From an uncultured delta proteobacterium (GTDB taxonomy: Bacteria; Myxococcota; Myxococcia; Myxococcales; 40CM-4-68-19), in contig CAIWCD010000024.1 in NCBI GenBank assembly GCA_903911145.1, forward strand, positions 124,001 through 188,000: a DNA stretch of 64,000 nt, in the 5' to 3' direction. Shown one piece after another: positions 19,718 to 35,664 of this stretch (its first letter is position 1; every line of letters starts with the position of its first letter). The notes under the pieces were generated by a model that saw only the letters and a list, made by a program, of their open reading frames with translations, was not told where the DNA came from and did no database searches. The position numbers were made by a program, and so were the translations under genes.

Positions 19718-20965
19718 GTGTCAGAACTTCCGACCAACAATCTCGCCGACGAGCTCAAGTCGCTGCGCATCGATCGCGATGCGCGTGTGCGCGGACTTCC
19801 CTCGTGGGCAAAGTGGCTCCTCTTCGCCGCGGTGCTCGGCGCAGGCGGTTACTTCGCCTTCCAGCAGATCTCCGAGCGGCTGCTCACGCCGTCTGTCGAG
19901 ACAACCACGGTCGCGCTCGTCACGCCGACGCAGGCGCAGCAGCTGCTCATCGCGACCGGCTATGTCGTGCCGCAGCGCAAGGCCAACGTCGCGCCGCGCA
20001 CCGGTGGTCGTCTGGCGAAGATCTTCGTCGAGGATGGCACCGAAGTGAGGGCGGGCCAGCTGATCGCGATGCTCGAAGATCAGGACACCAAGGCGCAGCT
20101 GCTGCAGGCGCAGGCGAACTTCAAGTCGTCCGAGGCGCGACTGCTTCGCTCTGAGGTCGATCAGCGCGACGCGCAGCGGGCCTACGATCGAGAGCAGATC
20201 GTGCAGCAGAAAGGGGTCTCGACCGCATCGGCGCAGGACAGTGCGATCGCGCGGCTCGATTCAGCGAAGGCGCAGACCATCGCGAGCAAGGCAGACATGG
20301 CCGCCGCGGCCGCGCTGGTGGAGGTCGCGCGCGTCAATCTCGACAACTGCTCGGTGCGCGCGCCGTTCGCCGGACGCATCACGCAGAAGCTCGCCGACAT
20401 CGGCGAGATCGTCTTCGGCGCAGTCGGCGCAGGCGCGGGCGGCAACGGTGGCGTCGCTTCGCTCGCCGATTTCTCCTCGCTGATGGTCGAGGCCGACGTC
20501 AGCGAAAGCCAGGTCATCAAGGTGCAGCCCGGCACTCCCGCGGAGATCGCGCTCGATGCATTTCCCGGCCGCACCTTTCGCGCGAAGGTTCACGAGGTGC
20601 GCCCGAAAGTCGATCGCGCGAAGGCCACCGTCACGGTCAAGGTTGCGTTCATCGATCCGATGGACGGTGTCCTGCCTGACATGGGAGCGAAGGTGACGTT
20701 CCTCTCGAAGGAGCTCAGCGCCGCTGCCGAGAAGGCGCCGCCCACTCCCGCAGTTCAAGCGGATGCGGTCGTCGGCGTGGGCGACAACAAGGTGCTCTGG
20801 GTGGTTCAGCCCGACGGCACGCTCCTGTCGAGCAGCGTCGTGCTCGGCCCACCCATCGGCGGGCTTGTGTCGCTCAAGAGCGGGCCAGCGCCGGGAACGA
20901 AAGTCGTCGAGAAGCCAGCCGCGGATTTTCACGCAGGCATGCACGTCAAGGAGAAGTCGCCGTGA
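19718..20965 (+). CDS. MacA/HlyD-type periplasmic adaptor
   Basis: A 415-residue membrane-fusion protein. One N-terminal helix ([19 protein letters not shown], about 26-44) anchors it. Then come a barrel-sandwich segment ([24 protein letters not shown]), a helical hairpin (about 125-200, [15 protein letters not shown]) and a second lipoyl half ([20 protein letters not shown]). It is the first gene of a four-gene unit with an ATPase and two permeases. The start is GTG 19718-19720, just downstream of a TTAGAA box; longer frames have no support. It ends in a GTGA overlap with the ATPase. Likely role: export or envelope transfer of lipids, peptides or siderophores in MacAB fashion. No outer-membrane TolC is encoded in the window. 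Confidence 0.9.
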
Positions 20966-21660
20966 GCGAGTCAGCGAGCGCAGCAAGTGGCAAGGCCATC
21001 GTCGAGATTCGCAACCTGCGCAAAGTCTACTCGCGCGAGAAGCAGGAAGTGGTCGTTCTCGACGGCATCAACCTCGACATCATGACCGGCTCGTTCGAGG
21101 CGCTGATGGGTCCGTCGGGCTCGGGCAAGAGCACGCTGCTCAACTTGATCGCGGGGATCGATTCGCCCACGAGCGGCTCGATGAAGGTCGCGGGCGAGGA
21201 TGTCGCCAGCCTCTCCGAGACGCAACGTGCGGCGTGGCGTGCGCGCCACATCGGCTTCATCTTCCAGTTCTACAATCTGATGCCGGTGCTCTCGGCGGCG
21301 GAGAATGTCGAGCTGCCGCTGCTCTTGACGTCGCTCTCGAAGAGCGAGCGCAAGAAGCGCGTCGAGACCGCGCTCAAGCTGGTCAATCTCGCTGACCGCA
21401 TGGATCACACGCCCAAGCAGCTCTCCGGCGGGCAGCAGCAGCGCGTGGCGATCGCGCGCGCGATCGTGGCGGACCCGACCATCATCGTCGCCGACGAGCC
21501 GACGGGAGATCTCGATCGCAAGAGCGCAGAGGAAATTCTCGCGCTGCTCACGACGCTCAACAAGACGCTCGGCAAGACGATCGTGATGGTCACTCACGAT
21601 CCGCACGCAGCCGAAGCGGCGACGGTGCAGCGCCGCCTCGACAAGGGGCTCTTGACGTGA
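20962..21660 (+). CDS. MacB/LolD-type ABC transporter ATPase
   Basis: A 232-residue ATPase. Walker A is GPSGSGKST, the Q-loop lies in [14 protein letters not shown], the signature is [14 protein letters not shown], Walker B is [12 protein letters not shown] and the switch His is in MVTHD. The sequence is typical of the MacB/LolD/FtsE group, which power mechanotransmission rather than classical transport. It starts at GTG 20962 within the adaptor's stop codon and ends in a GTGA overlap with the first permease, so the genes are translationally coupled. Confidence 0.95.
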
Positions 21661-29428: not shown

Positions 29429-32400
29429 CTACTTCCCGAGCAGAAACTCGACGCGCTCGTTCTTCTTGCGGCCCTGCGCCGTCAGATTGGGCGCGATCGG
29501 CTGCGTCGCTCCAGCGCCAGTCGCGGTGAGGCGAGCGCCCTCGATCCCCTGGCCGATGAGGAACTTCACGACCGTGTCCGCGCGCTGCTGCGAGAGGCTC
29601 TTCGCCTGCTCCTCGGAGGGCGCGCCGCCCGTGTGCGCGCGCACCTCGACATGCTCAAGCTCGGGGTGGCTCTTGAGCAGCGTCGCGACCTGCTGCAGCA
29701 GGGCCAGCGAGCGCCGCTCCAGGCCGGCCTCGTTGCTGTGGAACTCGATGCGTCCATCGATCGCGAGACGGTTTCCACTGATGCCGACCTGCCTGGTGGT
29801 GATCTCGGTGGTGACGAGCGGCGCGAGCGGGAGCGCCTCGTCCCGCGTGGTGGCCCGCGGTGGCGGAGACGTCAGCGGCAACGTGTTCGCATCAGGCAGC
29901 GCGAGCATGTTTGAAGGCGCAGGAGTGGGTCGCGCTTGAGGTGTCGCGCTCACCGGGCTTTGCGGCGCTGCGTTCGCATCCGGTGCTGGTGGCGCATGAG
30001 GCGTTGGTGCGGACGATGCCTGCGCGGGAGCGTTCGTGCTTGCGAGGGGCGCCGGCGCGATATTCGCTGAGGCAGATATGATGCTCGCTGGCGCCGCGTT
30101 CGCAACCGGCGGGACTGGCGCGGGCTGCGGTGATTTCTCTGCGGCGTTGTCGGCGGTGGACGTTGGCTTGCGCTCGGGGGCTTTGGGGGCAGCGAACGAG
30201 AGCACCGAGACCGAGGGGCGCCTGGCGAATCGATTTCGCGCCGCCGCACCGCAGGCCTCTGGCGCGTACGCAAGTCCCAGCACCAGGCGCGCTCGCGGCG
30301 AGCCGACACCGCTGGTGAGCGCGGTTCCGAATCCCATGTCGAACGAGATTGCCTCGGTGGCGCAGAAGGAGACGCCGAGTCGCCACTCCGCGGGGATGGT
30401 GCCGGGGGCGAACCCTCCGCGCAGCGCACTCTCGGCTTCCGCCTCGACGAAGACCCGACGCGGGACTGACGACGTGCTCACCTCGGGAAGCCAGGCGATG
30501 CCGCCGCGCACGCCGAGTTCGTTGCCCTGCTTGACGTCGAGAATCGTCTGCGGGGTGCGCAGCCGCAGGAGGAGATTTCCCAGCAGCTCGAACTGCGCGC
30601 CCGCCAGCGAGAGGTGCCGCCCCGCCGCGGCGAGCAGCTCGACCTGCATGCGCGTGTCTCCCACGTAGGCCGTGTTGCTCGCCGTGCGAAGCGTCAGCGA
30701 GCCCTGCACCGCGAGATCGATCGGGGCGCTCTCCTGGCGCAGCAGCGACACGCGCGGGGTCAGCCGCAGATCTCCCAGCCCGCTGCCGAAGGAGCCCGCG
30801 GGCCGCGCCGCCGCAGGCAGCGCCGAGAGATCGCCGCTCTCCGAGAGGAGAATCGGCAGCTGCACCGCGAGAGAGTAACGGCTCCAGATGTGGACCTCCA
30901 ACCCGATGAAGCTCTCGATACGATCGAGGACGAGGACTTCGCGCCCGCCCGTGTTGGGATGGAACACCAGCGGTTCGTACGCGCCATCGAGCCAGAGGTT
31001 GGCGGACACGAACGGATCGCCGTCGATCGGTGCGCGCGCCCCCTCGACTCCGAGCAGGCCCGCACCGTCGGAAGGAGGCTGGAAGCGGCCGAGGTCGAGC
31101 TGCTGTGCGTGCGCGCCGGTCGCGATCAGAAGGGCGAGCGCGCCAATGCGTGCAGGGGAGAAGCTGCGCCGAAGCCTCCTCGCGCGGCGGTGGGGCCAGG
31201 CCAGGAGGAGCAGCGCGATCGCGACGAGCGGCATCGGAACGCCGCCGCTCGCGCAGCCGCCGCGCACCGAGCCGGGCACCTGAATGGTGAACTCGACGGA
31301 GGCCGGAGCGCTGACGTTGCCGAGCGAATCGGTCGCGTTCGCGACGAGCGTGTGGCTCCCGCCGGAGACGGTGCCCAGAGAGAGCGTCCAGCTCCCGTCC
31401 GCGCCAGGACTGGTCGCGCCGATCGCCGCTCCATCGAGCACCAGCGAGACAGCAAGCCCAACGAGCGCTGTTCCGCTCGCGGTCACCGCTGCGTTCTCCA
31501 ATGTCGAACCATCTGCGGGTGTGACAATCGTCGGCGTCGCGGGCGCGACAGTGTCGATGACAAGCGAGACCGGGCTTGAGTCTGGCGAGACGTTTCCGCT
31601 CAGGTCCGCGGCCCGCGCGGTGATCTGGTAGCTGCCGTCCGGGATGGAGCTGAACGGCTGGCAGGTCCAGTGGCCGTTGGCTGGTGTCCCGGTGCAGAAG
31701 TCCCGTCCGTTCGAGCGGACGTTGATGAAGATCCCTGCGGTCGCTGTGCCGGTGAAGGTCGGGCGCGAGTTGTTGGTCGGCGAGGTCGGTGCATCGAGCG
31801 TCGGCGCCGCGAGTCCGTTCGGGTTCGTCGTCGTCACGGTGAGCGGCTGGACGGGGTTCGAAGGCGCGCTCTGCACTCCTGCGCGCGAGGTCGACTGCGC
31901 GGTGAGCTGGTAGTCGCCAGTTGCGAGCGGTGACGTTGGCGTGCAGCTGAAATGCCCCTGCACGTCGGCCGTCGCGCTGCAGAGCTTGCCGGCGCCCGGA
32001 TCATCGACCTCGACGGTATCGAGCGCTTCGGCACTGCCCGTGAAGGTCGGCGAGTGGTTCGTCGTCGGCGTGCTCGGCGGATTGAGCGACGGCGCCTGCG
32101 GCACGCGCGTGTCGACCGTGAACGAGATGGGTGCGGAGGGCGCAGAGCTTGCGTGGCTTCCGGCCGGCGCCTGCTGCACGGCGTGCGCGGAGTAGGGCGT
32201 CGCGGGTTGCCCGATGAGCAGCACGTTGCTCGCGCAGCTCCACGTTCCATCTCCGCGAACTGTCGCCGTGCAGAGAGTCTGCGCGCCGACCAGTGCGACG
32301 GTGACGGTGTCGCCGGGCACACCGGTTCCCGTGAAGGTCGGCTCGGTCTGCGCGGTGAATCCCGGCTGCCCTCCGGTCGGTGTCGCGAGCGGATCGAGCG

Positions 32401-35400
32401 TCGGCGCGGGAGCGATGGTGTCATCGATCGTGAACGTCACGGTCGCCGACATCGCGGAGATGTTCCCGACCGCGTCCGTCGCGTTCGCCTGCACGGTGTG
32501 GCTCCCGTTGGCCAGGCTGCTCTGCGACACGCAGGAGAAGCGCCCGACGGAAGGGCCGCTGCAGAGTGGCGTCTGGCCCTCGAAGACGGTGACCTGCGCG
32601 CCCGCTTCGGCCGCGCCAAGGAAGAGCGGAAAGTGCATCGCGGTCGGGCTCGGCACGGCGTCGAGCACGGGCGCGCCCGGGGCAGTCGTGTCGATGGTGA
32701 TCGCCAGCGGCGCGGACGGAGGCGAGAGCACGGTCGTGCTCGAGCGCGCGAAGGCCGTGAACGTGTAGTTCCCGTCGGGAAGCGACTGGCTGCTGCAGCT
32801 CCACGGTCCGGTCGAACCGCTTGGGGCGACCACCGGATCGGTCCCGCAGATCAGGTTGCCAGCGCCGTCGTAGACGACGACATTCGTGCTCTGATCGGCC
32901 GTGCCCGTGAAGGGGATCAGGTTCTGCCTGGTTGGCGAGCCGGGACCGGTCAGCGTCGGTGCATCGGGCTGCGTATTGTCGACCACCAGCGGCTGCACGG
33001 TTGCGCTGCTGCGATTTCCGGCGAGATCGATCTGGACCGCCTCCAGCCTGAAGTTGCCGTTCGCGAGTGCCGACGATGTGCAGCTCCACGTTCCGTCGCT
33101 CTCGACCACGGCCGAGCAGAGCAGGTTGCCGAATCCGCCGCTCGCGCCATCTCCGACCTGCACGGTGTCTCCTGCGATGCCTGTCCCGCTCAAGCCTGGC
33201 GACGTCTGTGCGGTGGGCGACGCAGGCGCGTTGAATCCGGGCGGCGCGGGCGGCGTTGTGTCGATGGTGAAGACGTCGTTGTTCGAAGGGCAGACGGTCG
33301 CGGCTCCGTTGGTTGCCACCGCGACCACCGTGTAGCTGCCGTCGCCGAGCGGGCTCGCGACGTGGCATTGCCAGACGCCACTGTTGTCCACTGTCGCGAT
33401 CGCGCAGAGCGGTGTCGAGCCGGCTCCGCAGGGAGATGCGCCACCCGCGCAGACATGAACCGCGAGGCCGGCAGTCGCGGTGCCGTGGAAGGTCGGCTGG
33501 TTGTTGTTCGAGGGCGAAGCGGTCTGCTGCATCGTCGAGCCACAGGCCCCGCCGGTCACAACAGTGAAGGGCTGCGGGCCCGCGACGCTGCCCGGCGATC
33601 CGTTCGCCTCGAGCACGGCCGCCATCACGTTGTAGCTGCCGTCGGCGAGGGTGCGGTCGCAGCTCCATTGATCCCCGAGGGTCGAGGAGTCGCACGTGAT
33701 CGCGGGGCCGCTCGAGGGAGTGACGGTGATGCGCACCGTCTCGCCGTTCGCGACCTGCTGCGCGGTGCCGCTGAAGTGGACGCGCGAGCTGTTGAGAACC
33801 TGTCCGCTGCTCGGCGTGATGATCACAGGCGCGAAGGGGCCATTGACGACGAACGGATAGTCCGGACCCCACGGGCCGACGTTGCCGCTCGCGCCGACGA
33901 TGCGTGCGCGCGCGATGTAGTTTCCGTTGCCGAACGCGGCGGCGGCGCAGCGCCACGAGCCGTTTGTGCCGGTGCTCGCGGTGCAGCTTTGCAGCGGCGA
34001 GGAGTTGGTCGGCCCGCTGTACGAGACCTGCACCGTCTGGCCGGTTGGTGCCCGGCTGGTTCCGGAGATGGTGAGCAGCACGTCGGCCCAGCTGGGATCC
34101 GCGGGCCCGGTCACGACCGGCGCGGACTCTGCCGCTGCGCCGACCACCAGGCGGGTGGCGTCGTCATCGGCGAGGCCCACGGCCGCCGAGCTCGCAAGCG
34201 CCGCGGGAGTATTGCCCGTGTCGACAGCCGCGAAGTTCGAGCTCCCGACGGAGTTCGGATCTCCGGTGAGCGCGTAGATCTCTCCCGCCGTCTGCTCTCC
34301 CGCGCCGCCCACGGCGTTCGCGATCTCCGTCGCCGTCGCAAGTCCCGTCACCACGCCCTGCACGTCGATGATCGTGTTCGCCGCAAGCCCCGCGTGCACC
34401 ACGGCCGTGAAGGTTCCGCTCAGCGAATCGCCCGGGTTGAGCGTCTGGACCATCGTGCAGACCAGCAGCCCGTTGTTGTTCGAGCAGCTGCCTCCCATGC
34501 TCGGTGTGAGGTTGGTGAGCCTGGTCGGATCAACGCGGACGGCAAACGTGTAGCTGCTCAGCGGCGCAGTGCCGGTGTTGCTGATCGAGACGCTATACGT
34601 GACCGTGTCGCCCGGATGCACGGTGGTGTTGGGATCGCTCACCGTCATCGTCGTGTTGATGGCGGGCGCGTAGACGTGATCGGCGGGAACGAGAGTGAAG
34701 CCATTGAGGCTGCTGGTGGTCGGTGGCGTCGCGCTGCCATCGGCCCACGACCATTCGAGTCCCTGGCTTCCGTTGCCGTTGAAGTAGAGGAGGTCGAAGG
34801 GAAACAGGCCTCCCGCAGCAGGGAACGTCACCGTCAATTTGCTCTGGTTGAACTGGCTCGAGCAGCCTGCGTAGTAGGCGGTCCCGGCAACGGTGGTCGA
34901 CATGCTGCGGTTCTGGTCGCAGCTCATCGTGTGCGCGGTGGTGCCGTCGCTGATCGCGAAGCGGAAGCCGTCGTCGCTCGCGACCACGAAGGTCTTTACG
35001 ATCGGCTGAGCCGTGGCGCTCGGATCGACGCGCAGATATCCCGCGAAGAGTCCCGCCCAGTTGTTCTTCTGCGCGCCGAAGATCTTTCCCGGGTCGAGAT
35101 TCTGGCTGAAGAGCCCGCCCGCCGAGCCGCCGCCCGAAAAATCGATGGGCAGGCCGAGCGGCCACGAAGCGACGGAGATGCTGGTCGCAGGTGTAGCCGG
35201 GACCTGCAGCGCGGTCGCACCATTGACGAGCGTCTCCGCCTGGCTGAGCGGATCGCCGCCGCCGAACGCATTTGCCGCGCAGCAGACGGCCTTGGCGGCT
35301 GGGCCGTTGCCGGCGTCGGGCGGGAGTGGCAGGGGGGCCAGCAGACTGCTCGAGCTGTTCGCCGGCCGCGGGCGAGTGGCGCCGGAGCCGGCCTGGCCGC

Positions 35401-35521
35401 AAGCCAGAGCGCACGCGAGGAGCGCGACGAGCATCATCGGAACTCCGCGCGCGCGGTCTCCGAGCGATTGCCGACGAGGCGCAACCTGCGAATTGAGCTT
35501 CGATGCCACGCGACACCTCAC
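29429..35521 (-). CDS. Giant surface protein: PA14, Ig-repeat and MYXO-CTERM part joined to signal-peptide/barrel/OmpA part
   Basis: A 2030-residue protein with two successive export modules. N-terminal module: signal peptide with an LLAC box near residue 36; PA14-like domain at ~100-290 (FVVASDDGFRFAISDG, LLYFNGNGSQGLEWSW); a DUF11-type domain at ~305-400; ten Ig-like repeats at ~475-1415, nearly all with a Cys pair (LC...WSC); then a MYXO-CTERM-like tail near 1420-1455 (GGCASGG, hydrophobic helix, HRRARRLRR). Directly after comes a second signal-like helix (RIGALALLIATGAHA) ending near residue 1471, a barrel-like region (~1472-1765), a Pro/Ala-rich linker and an OmpA C-terminal domain (~1910-2030). 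The order matches myxobacterial TraA followed by TraB, which drive outer-membrane exchange as two genes. Here they are one frame. GTG 35519-35521 is the assumed start; GTG at 35509 or ATG near 35437 are possible. Confidence 0.75.
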   Translation of the reverse strand: MRCRVASKLNSQVAPRRQSLGDRARGVPMMLVALLACALACGQAGSGATRPRPANSSSSLLAPLPLPPDAGNGPAAKAVCCAANAFGGGDPLSQAETLVNGATALQVPATPATSISVASWPLGLPIDFSGGGSAGGLFSQNLDPGKIFGAQKNNWAGLFAGYLRVDPSATAQPIVKTFVVASDDGFRFAISDGTTAHTMSCDQNRSMSTTVAGTAYYAGCSSQFNQSKLTVTFPAAGGLFPFDLLYFNGNGSQGLEWSWADGSATPPTTSSLNGFTLVPADHVYAPAINTTMTVSDPNTTVHPGDTVTYSVSISNTGTAPLSSYTFAVRVDPTRLTNLTPSMGGSCSNNNGLLVCTMVQTLNPGDSLSGTFTAVVHAGLAANTIIDVQGVVTGLATATEIANAVGGAGEQTAGEIYALTGDPNSVGSSNFAAVDTGNTPAALASSAAVGLADDDATRLVVGAAAESAPVVTGPADPSWADVLLTISGTSRAPTGQTVQVSYSGPTNSSPLQSCTASTGTNGSWRCAAAAFGNGNYIARARIVGASGNVGPWGPDYPFVVNGPFAPVIITPSSGQVLNSSRVHFSGTAQQVANGETVRITVTPSSGPAITCDSSTLGDQWSCDRTLADGSYNVMAAVLEANGSPGSVAGPQPFTVVTGGACGSTMQQTASPSNNNQPTFHGTATAGLAVHVCAGGASPCGAGSTPLCAIATVDNSGVWQCHVASPLGDGSYTVVAVATNGAATVCPSNNDVFTIDTTPPAPPGFNAPASPTAQTSPGLSGTGIAGDTVQVGDGASGGFGNLLCSAVVESDGTWSCTSSALANGNFRLEAVQIDLAGNRSSATVQPLVVDNTQPDAPTLTGPGSPTRQNLIPFTGTADQSTNVVVYDGAGNLICGTDPVVAPSGSTGPWSCSSQSLPDGNYTFTAFARSSTTVLSPPSAPLAITIDTTAPGAPVLDAVPSPTAMHFPLFLGAAEAGAQVTVFEGQTPLCSGPSVGRFSCVSQSSLANGSHTVQANATDAVGNISAMSATVTFTIDDTIAPAPTLDPLATPTGGQPGFTAQTEPTFTGTGVPGDTVTVALVGAQTLCTATVRGDGTWSCASNVLLIGQPATPYSAHAVQQAPAGSHASSAPSAPISFTVDTRVPQAPSLNPPSTPTTNHSPTFTGSAEALDTVEVDDPGAGKLCSATADVQGHFSCTPTSPLATGDYQLTAQSTSRAGVQSAPSNPVQPLTVTTTNPNGLAAPTLDAPTSPTNNSRPTFTGTATAGIFINVRSNGRDFCTGTPANGHWTCQPFSSIPDGSYQITARAADLSGNVSPDSSPVSLVIDTVAPATPTIVTPADGSTLENAAVTASGTALVGLAVSLVLDGAAIGATSPGADGSWTLSLGTVSGGSHTLVANATDSLGNVSAPASVEFTIQVPGSVRGGCASGGVPMPLVAIALLLLAWPHRRARRLRRSFSPARIGALALLIATGAHAQQLDLGRFQPPSDGAGLLGVEGARAPIDGDPFVSANLWLDGAYEPLVFHPNTGGREVLVLDRIESFIGLEVHIWSRYSLAVQLPILLSESGDLSALPAAARPAGSFGSGLGDLRLTPRVSLLRQESAPIDLAVQGSLTLRTASNTAYVGDTRMQVELLAAAGRHLSLAGAQFELLGNLLLRLRTPQTILDVKQGNELGVRGGIAWLPEVSTSSVPRRVFVEAEAESALRGGFAPGTIPAEWRLGVSFCATEAISFDMGFGTALTSGVGSPRARLVLGLAYAPEACGAAARNRFARRPSVSVLSFAAPKAPERKPTSTADNAAEKSPQPAPVPPVANAAPASIISASANIAPAPLASTNAPAQASSAPTPHAPPAPDANAAPQSPVSATPQARPTPAPSNMLALPDANTLPLTSPPPRATTRDEALPLAPLVTTEITTRQVGISGNRLAIDGRIEFHSNEAGLERRSLALLQQVATLLKSHPELEHVEVRAHTGGAPSEEQAKSLSQQRADTVVKFLIGQGIEGARLTATGAGATQPIAPNLTAQGRKKNERVEFLLGK
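31080..31280 (-). other. Junction of MYXO-CTERM-like tail and internal signal peptide
   Basis: In the large surface gene this stretch encodes GGCASGGVPMPLVAIALLLL, then AWPHRRARRLRR, then RIGALALLIATGAHAQQ. The first is a sorting-tail pattern and the last is a signal-peptide pattern with an AHA cleavage site. No stop codon lies between. The ATG in VPMPLV is the only nearby internal start candidate. Coordinates are approximate. Confidence 0.6.
31275..34100 (-). repeat. Ten tandem Ig-like repeats (coding)
   Basis: About 90-105 residues per unit inside the surface protein. Units begin with APTL-P-SPT and contain PTFTGTA, then LC...G.WSC, then DGSY, and end in FTIDTTAP. The first two and the last unit are more divergent; the last has no Cys pair. 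Coordinates are approximate. Confidence 0.75.
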
Positions 35522-35664
35522 AGGACGCCCCGCGCAAGTCTATCACGGCACCATGCGCCCCTCGCCGCCGTGCACGAGCTGAAATAGAGCGGACGCTTGA
35601 GGCGGTGCTGGACAAGGGCGTGCGCAAGGACGAGGATCGAAAGTTCATTCGAGGGAGCACCACC

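Follow-up and report, generated by a model that had tools for sequence, protein, structure and literature searches.

The myxobacterial surface receptor TraA carries a MYXO-CTERM tag, at which it is cleaved by MrtX (PMC11980579), and it is found in a 1:1 ratio with TraB (PMC12045341). For MXAN_5598 of Myxococcus xanthus, a protein with the same layout as the one described below, Guo, Haft and Wall (2025) have proposed processing at an internal MYXO-CTERM (PMC11980579).

Anatomy of the 2030-residue frame

The window, a stretch of 64,000 nucleotides from contig CAIWCD010000024.1 of an uncultured delta proteobacterium, contains on its minus strand a frame of 2030 codons with no internal stop. This confirms the first-pass annotation, which had described one continuous frame with an adhesin, a MYXO-CTERM-type tail, a second signal, a barrel-like region and an OmpA domain. 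The frame is listed with a GTG start, though the ATG at 35437 is more likely to be used. In order of translation the parts are:

29429..35521, minus strand: whole frame, 2030 aa, GTG start as listed
35402..35437, minus strand: lipoprotein-type signal MMLVALLACALA ahead of Cys41 (residues 29-40), read from the sequence
34742..35083, minus strand: PA14-like region (residues 147-260), sub-threshold PA14 match
34373..34633, minus strand: DUF11-type domain (residues 297-383), profile match
31277..34114, minus strand: about ten Cys-paired Big_13/Ca_tandemer Ig repeats (~residues 470-1415), from profiles and Cys spacing
31166..31261, minus strand: internal MYXO-CTERM-like tag with Gly-Gly-Cys1423, hydrophobic helix and Arg cluster (residues 1421-1452), TIGR03901 12.8 bits
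31106..31165, minus strand: second signal-peptide-like helix ending in AHA before QQ (residues 1453-1472), putative cut 1472/1473, read from the sequence
30242..31024, minus strand: TraB-like outer-membrane beta-barrel (~residues 1500-1760), NF033763 match and low-confidence model
29777..30241, minus strand: Pro/Ala-rich linker (~residues 1761-1915), read from the sequence
29459..29743, minus strand: OmpA peptidoglycan-binding domain (residues 1927-2021), PF00691 61.6 bits, cut-off 27.2

Of the domains named at first pass, OmpA and the Ig repeats score above their curated cut-offs, the latter with Big_13 (10 stretches), Big_6 and Ca_tandemer (8 stretches; 160.7 against a cut-off of 50), and Cys pairs run along the repeats with a spacing of mostly 10-17 residues. 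The PA14 match (PF07691, 16.0 bits, gathering cut-off 24) and the tag (cut-off 20) fall below theirs, yet both are conserved in relatives: the PA14-like motif is kept in L171 and L173, including a same-genus protein of 41% identity, and the position of the tag is conserved across the relatives. A separate scan of the N-terminal part puts DUF11 barely above its cut-off. L171, the same-genus orthologue, has the lipobox too, as do many of the fused relatives. A first scan of the genome contigs with the whole protein as query gave no relative. The adjoining genes encode PP2C, cytidine deaminase and TerB-like proteins.

The second half is homologous to TraB. The whole protein scores 82.1 bits against the TraB model NF033763, under the curated cut-off of 700, and the barrel alone matches model positions 8-296 with E=3.1e-5 and 22 bits against the same cut-off of 700. 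An AlphaFold model of the barrel from a four-sequence alignment has 12 strands but low confidence (pLDDT 56); its best fold matches are outer-membrane barrels. A single-sequence run reached a pLDDT of only 33 and gave a useless model. Among the 60 profile matches listed, solved structures covered only OmpA or OmpA plus the linker, and none the barrel.

Fused and split relatives of the junction

On comparison of 36 junctions, the window tag has the invariant Cys, hydrophobic helix and Arg cluster of MYXO-CTERM, and some 600 residues come after it in place of the extreme C-terminus. It is not a chance resemblance, because on residue-shuffled proteins the tag detector fired only about 0.002 times per 95-residue window. 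With "fused" defined by the presence of a tag ahead of the barrel, 36 frames of the same kind were found in 25 of the 60 genomes of the order, spread over families f1, f2, f3, f4, f6 and f7; among the genomes are G006, G034 and G054, each assembled as a single contig. In all 36 the Cys motif, helix and Arg cluster are followed by a second hydrophobic helix, an AxA-type site and then the barrel. The fused paralogues C2 and C3 of the same genome exceed the TIGR03901 cut-off, at 20.9 and 21.8, and at C18, also in this genome, the second signal is of the lipoprotein type. The tag at C1 of this genome has the same form, but there it terminates a separate protein. A tag in mid-protein had seemed odd at first pass; as a rule such a position is unusual, but it is frequent within this order, and MXAN_5598 had already provided a published case (PMC11980579).

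The same barrels also occur as separate signal-peptide proteins and in overlapping split genes. Overlaps of 4 bases (ATGA/GTGA) are found at the TraA-TraB loci, in C1 and at L137, L143 and L149. These split homologues, which the annotation had proposed to look for, together with the fused frames bear out its suggestion of a natural fusion between an adhesin/MYXO-CTERM half and a TraB-like barrel/OmpA half. Placed on the tree, the fused state requires 10 changes, at least 7 of which are forced by starred (well-supported) branches. From the Arg cluster to the AHA site the window frame has no in-frame ATG, GTG or TTG, and separate initiation of the second half is therefore ruled out.

A probable two-protein precursor and its alternatives

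Taken together, the window protein is probably a self-splitting polyprotein for export to the cell envelope, giving an adhesin and its anchor at 1:1. The N-terminal lipoprotein-type signal would direct Sec export of the PA14-like/DUF11/Ig adhesin until the MYXO-CTERM helix acted as a stop-transfer sequence, with the Arg cluster on the cytoplasmic side, and the second signal-like helix would then allow export to resume. Signal peptidase I would cleave past AHA, between 1472 and 1473, releasing a barrel/OmpA protein that would enter the outer membrane and hold the peptidoglycan. Cys1423 would be lipidated, followed by myxosortase cleavage there, and the adhesin would reach the surface by way of the type II secretion system and may rest there on its barrel partner in the way that TraA has been modelled on TraB. 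Two cuts in one chain would thus yield receptor and anchor at 1:1 from a single gene. The genome encodes GspD and a myxosortase-family protease, which scores 160.9 bits with the MrtX model (below the cut-off of 180) and 100.1 with Mrt_core (cut-off 100).

It is unlikely, though worth weighing, that only the second signal is cut, the internal tag being degenerate and unprocessed by myxosortase, so that the adhesin is held by the inner-membrane helix or by the N-terminal lipid alone. The sub-threshold score of the window tag would fit this, as would the N-terminal lipobox, which offers an alternative anchor. However, Cys, helix and Arg cluster are kept in every fused junction read, the terminal tag of C1 has the same form and a gene for a myxosortase-family protease is present.

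That the chain is never cut is similarly improbable. The product would then be a giant adhesin permanently anchored by its barrel/OmpA part, with the helices either buried as a linker or folded as a hairpin in the membrane. The single frame and the lack of an internal start codon at the junction agree with this, and intimin and the autotransporters are known examples of long single chains that combine adhesin and barrel. Against it, the two hydrophobic helices around the Arg cluster would lie in the inner membrane with only about 32 residues left before the barrel. Since that stretch, from the AHA site to the first strand predicted by the low-confidence model, would span 11 nm or so at the very most, an uncut hairpin in the inner membrane would probably fall short of a barrel in the outer one. 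The occurrence of the barrels as separate or split proteins also argues against a permanently uncut chain.

A functional TraA-TraB fusion, performing kin recognition and outer-membrane exchange, is very unlikely. The TraB-like second half, the PA14-like N-terminal region and the parallel with traAB in being split or fused all speak for it, but the TraA model NF033759 has no match in this genome, while as a positive control it scored above cut-off in 12 of the 60 genomes of the order. The type I signal and Cys-rich stalk of TraA are replaced in the window adhesin by a lipobox at the N-terminus and by Ig repeats. By these profile and sequence comparisons the first half is not TraA, contrary to the first reading. 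Nor is the second half TraB, homologous as it is: it is far below the model cut-off, and the TraB genes linked to traA form a starred clade of their own that does not include the window protein. The Cys-rich stalks of C2 and C3 had also been considered as TraA-type TIGR04201 repeats; this was dropped, C3, the only one tested, being unmatched.

Finally, although the genome is assembled in 53 contigs, an assembly or sequencing error merging two genes, be it a missed stop, frameshift or chimera, is scarcely credible, because a junction of this kind is open in 36 frames of 25 genomes, single-contig assemblies among them, and dN/dS across it stays under 1 in 12 of the 13 pairs; the frame is real.

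Comparison with known systems

Adhesin-barrel fusions are common in the order, and one example was already in print. What is new here is the conserved second signal, the breadth of the class, the repeated switching between split and fused states and a second pair, MXAN_2561/2562, that is fused in the window's own family. On balance, we would expect self-splitting export polyproteins to be a general class in the Myxococcota, in which neighbouring genes, the first for a MYXO-CTERM surface protein and the second for its exported envelope partner, switch repeatedly between a split state, often with a 4-base overlap, and a fused one. In the latter the tag and a second signal of type I or lipoprotein type would free both products, with the TraB-like and MXAN_2562 barrels as at least two families that do so. 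If so, TraA-TraB would be one case of a widespread myxobacterial receptor-plus-anchor module, with fusion fixing the 1:1 ratio. Split and fused orthologues of one pair would provide natural experiments on the mid-chain sorting tag, the restart of export and adhesin-barrel partnering, and annotation as a single "OmpA family protein" may conceal two mature proteins.

TraA and TraB share with the window protein the succession of a MYXO-CTERM surface receptor, then a signal, barrel and OmpA domain, with a homologous second half, but traA and traB are two genes overlapping by 4 bases where the window has one. In MXAN_5598 adhesin, internal MYXO-CTERM, barrel and OmpA stand in identical order within one frame, and this protein has been detected in OMVs (PMC4158809). 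Its apparent orthologues (L075-L078, L080-L084 and L105) share the barrel family and the fused class with the window protein; they adjoin ftsZ, and most of them ftsA too. The window gene, in contrast, has PP2C, cytidine deaminase and TerB-like neighbours and lies on another branch of the tree, and its product is set apart by the lipobox, the PA14-like region and an adhesin built of Ig repeats.

MXAN_2561/2562 (NF045522/NF040596) likewise place a MYXO-CTERM protein before an outer-membrane barrel and are split or fused by family, being fused in f1, f5 and f8 and adjacent genes in f2, f3, f4, f6 and f7. The MXAN_2562 barrel is smaller, lacks OmpA and is unmatched by the TraB model, and the pair is single-copy and almost universal in the order. 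The window Ig repeats, far above the Ca_tandemer cut-off, resemble those of Ca_tandemer/Blp-type adhesins but, unlike these, they are followed by a tag of the MYXO-CTERM type and then by a barrel/OmpA partner.

Architecture of the window protein

The window protein is encoded by 2030 open codons on the minus strand (window 29429-35521; gene starts are approximate). From the N-terminus its features are:

Residues 29-41, minus strand: lipoprotein-type signal MMLVALLACALAC, preceded by a basic leader, as read from the sequence
Residues 147-260: PA14-like region, a sub-threshold match
Residues 297-383: DUF11
After DUF11: approximately ten Big_13/Ca_tandemer Ig repeats carrying Cys pairs
After the Ig repeats: internal MYXO-CTERM-like tag, with GGC1423ASGG, a hydrophobic helix and an Arg cluster
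Residues 1453-1472: second hydrophobic helix, ending GAHA/QQ
Between the second helix and OmpA: barrel-like region, then a Pro/Ala linker
Residues 1927-2021: OmpA

The reading of the sequence in the first-pass annotation holds, but within the window sequence PA14 and MYXO-CTERM each score under their curated cut-offs; both assignments are backed by conservation in relatives. Antisense to the gene lies a 1211-aa open frame (window 31952-35587, plus strand), probably arising from high GC and codon bias. The source genome comprises 5.3 Mb in 53 contigs, and the nearest named relatives found are the uncultured 'Deltaproteobacteria' MAGs SZAS-2, DP_11 and DP_13. Gene context is little informative, because the adjoining genes encode a PP2C phosphatase, a cytidine deaminase, a TerB-like protein and an M20 peptidase.

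Fused and split barrels

The second half is TraB-like, as first suggested, in that the barrel, taken by itself, matches TraB model NF033763 over positions 8-296 (22 bits, E=3e-5), but it is not TraB itself: the window protein reaches 82 bits where the cut-off is 700, and lies apart from the well-supported traA-linked TraB clade (100) on the tree. A sister fusion, L095, matches positions 8-499 of 522 with 158.6 bits. With an alignment of five barrels from the source genome, relatives turn up in 54 of the 60 genomes sampled from the order. Among 106 barrel frames taken from fetched regions, a few of them checked by eye, 36 (25 genomes; families f1, f2, f3, f4, f6 and f7) follow an internal MYXO-CTERM-like tag in one fused frame and 13 are split behind a gene with a terminal tag of the same kind, while for 57 the detector found no such tagged partner; the sample is one order, contig ends cut some fused frames and the regions were picked from stronger matches, making these figures counts and not rates. 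The 13 split frames supply the two-gene homologues that the first-pass annotation had proposed seeking. Four-base gene overlaps occur as ATGA (the traAB loci and L137) or GTGA (L143, L149 and contig C1 of the source genome, where at 20215-21323 (L021) a 2668-aa frame with a terminal MYXO-CTERM meets a TraB-like gene); M. xanthus traA and traB have a four-base overlap (PMC3325183).

The tree requires 10 changes for the fused state, 7 forced by well-supported branches, so the state has changed repeatedly, fusion and fission not being distinguished by such counts. The window protein pairs with L087 (97, well supported) within a well-supported group (99) made up of Ig-type f1 fusions together with barrels that have no partner. 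The tree is a quick one and several deep branches fall below this support, leaving the backbone less certain.

Read towards the barrel, all 36 fused junctions show the Cys of the tag, its helix and its Arg cluster, then a further hydrophobic stretch and finally an AxA-type site. The tag is present by construction, since the class was selected by it; the second signal was no selection criterion, although a script placed its site with the loose pattern [AGSTV]xA. On shuffled proteins the tag detector fires 0.002 times per 95 residues. dN/dS is <1 across the junction in 12 of 13 close pairs, the exception, L076/L077, having few differences. Separate initiation of the second half behind the tag is ruled out for normal start codons, as the window protein has no in-frame ATG, GTG or TTG between the Arg cluster and AHA.

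Other internal tags in the source genome

Internal tags account for four of the 13 top-scoring MYXO-CTERM matches in the source genome (contigs C2, C3, C46 and C18); the window tag, absent from those 13, is a fifth. C2:4463-6286 (L022) and C3:121525-123315 (L023) lie in further fused frames of 2176 and 2356 aa, which have Cys-rich stalks and resemble TraB more strongly (219.9 bits for L023); in the C3 copy the Cys repeats gave no match to TIGR04201. At C18:21158-21244 (L199), in a 3412-aa frame, a MYXO-CTERM-like tag runs straight into a lipoprotein signal, with CarboxypepD_reg repeats behind it. At C13:88717-96318 (L019, L025) lies a 4191-aa frame in which DUF11-type matches accompany two OmpA-like stretches.

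Among the independent evidence, a second barrel pair speaks most strongly for a general split/fused module. At C46:137519-138412 (L198, L210) the families of MXAN_2561 (MYXO-CTERM; 97.9 bits, cut-off 150) and MXAN_2562 (outer-membrane barrel; 149.3 bits, cut-off 100) are fused in a 589-aa frame with an internal tag and a putative second signal. This barrel occurs in 58 of 60 genomes, nearly always single-copy. In the loci that were read, all ten f1 loci whose junction is readable have it fused, as do those of f5 and f8; in f2, f3, f4, f6 and f7 it is mostly a separate gene directly downstream of a tag-ending gene.

Proposed processing and comparison with known systems

We favour a polyprotein for which we infer two cuts, at the internal tag and at the AHA site, because of the hairpin geometry, the myxosortase-family protease and GspD encoded in the genome, and the 1:1 action of TraA and TraB (PMC12045341), a ratio that fusion would enforce. 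In the precursor, the two helices flanking the Arg cluster would form an inner-membrane hairpin. The barrel would begin some 32 residues from the AHA site, a spacing taken from a weak structure model (pLDDT 56), and uncut would be unlikely to reach the outer membrane.

The suggestion that the first half is TraA was not borne out: the TraA model NF033759 has no match in the source genome, although the model passes its cut-off in 12 of the 60 genomes sampled from the order. True TraA is present in one family of the order, and on this basis the source genome probably belongs to the Myxococcales. The window protein and many fused relatives carry a lipoprotein-type N-terminal signal, whereas TraA has a type I signal (PMC3325183).

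The architecture is already known from one protein, MXAN_5598; the window protein belongs to a different branch. MXAN_5598 has an N-terminal adhesin, an internal MYXO-CTERM motif and a C-terminal barrel/OmpA; its layout has been likened to TraA and TraB combined, its N-terminal part is considered probably processed and surface-anchored, and its gene is placed beside ftsA and ftsZ (Guo, Haft and Wall, mBio 2025, PMC11980579). The protein has also been found in vesicles and membranes of M. xanthus (PMC4158809). Within the family that carries TraA, L075-L078, L080-L084 and L105 are fused frames that adjoin ftsZ and are mostly flanked by ftsA at the opposite end; they are thus apparent MXAN_5598 orthologues.
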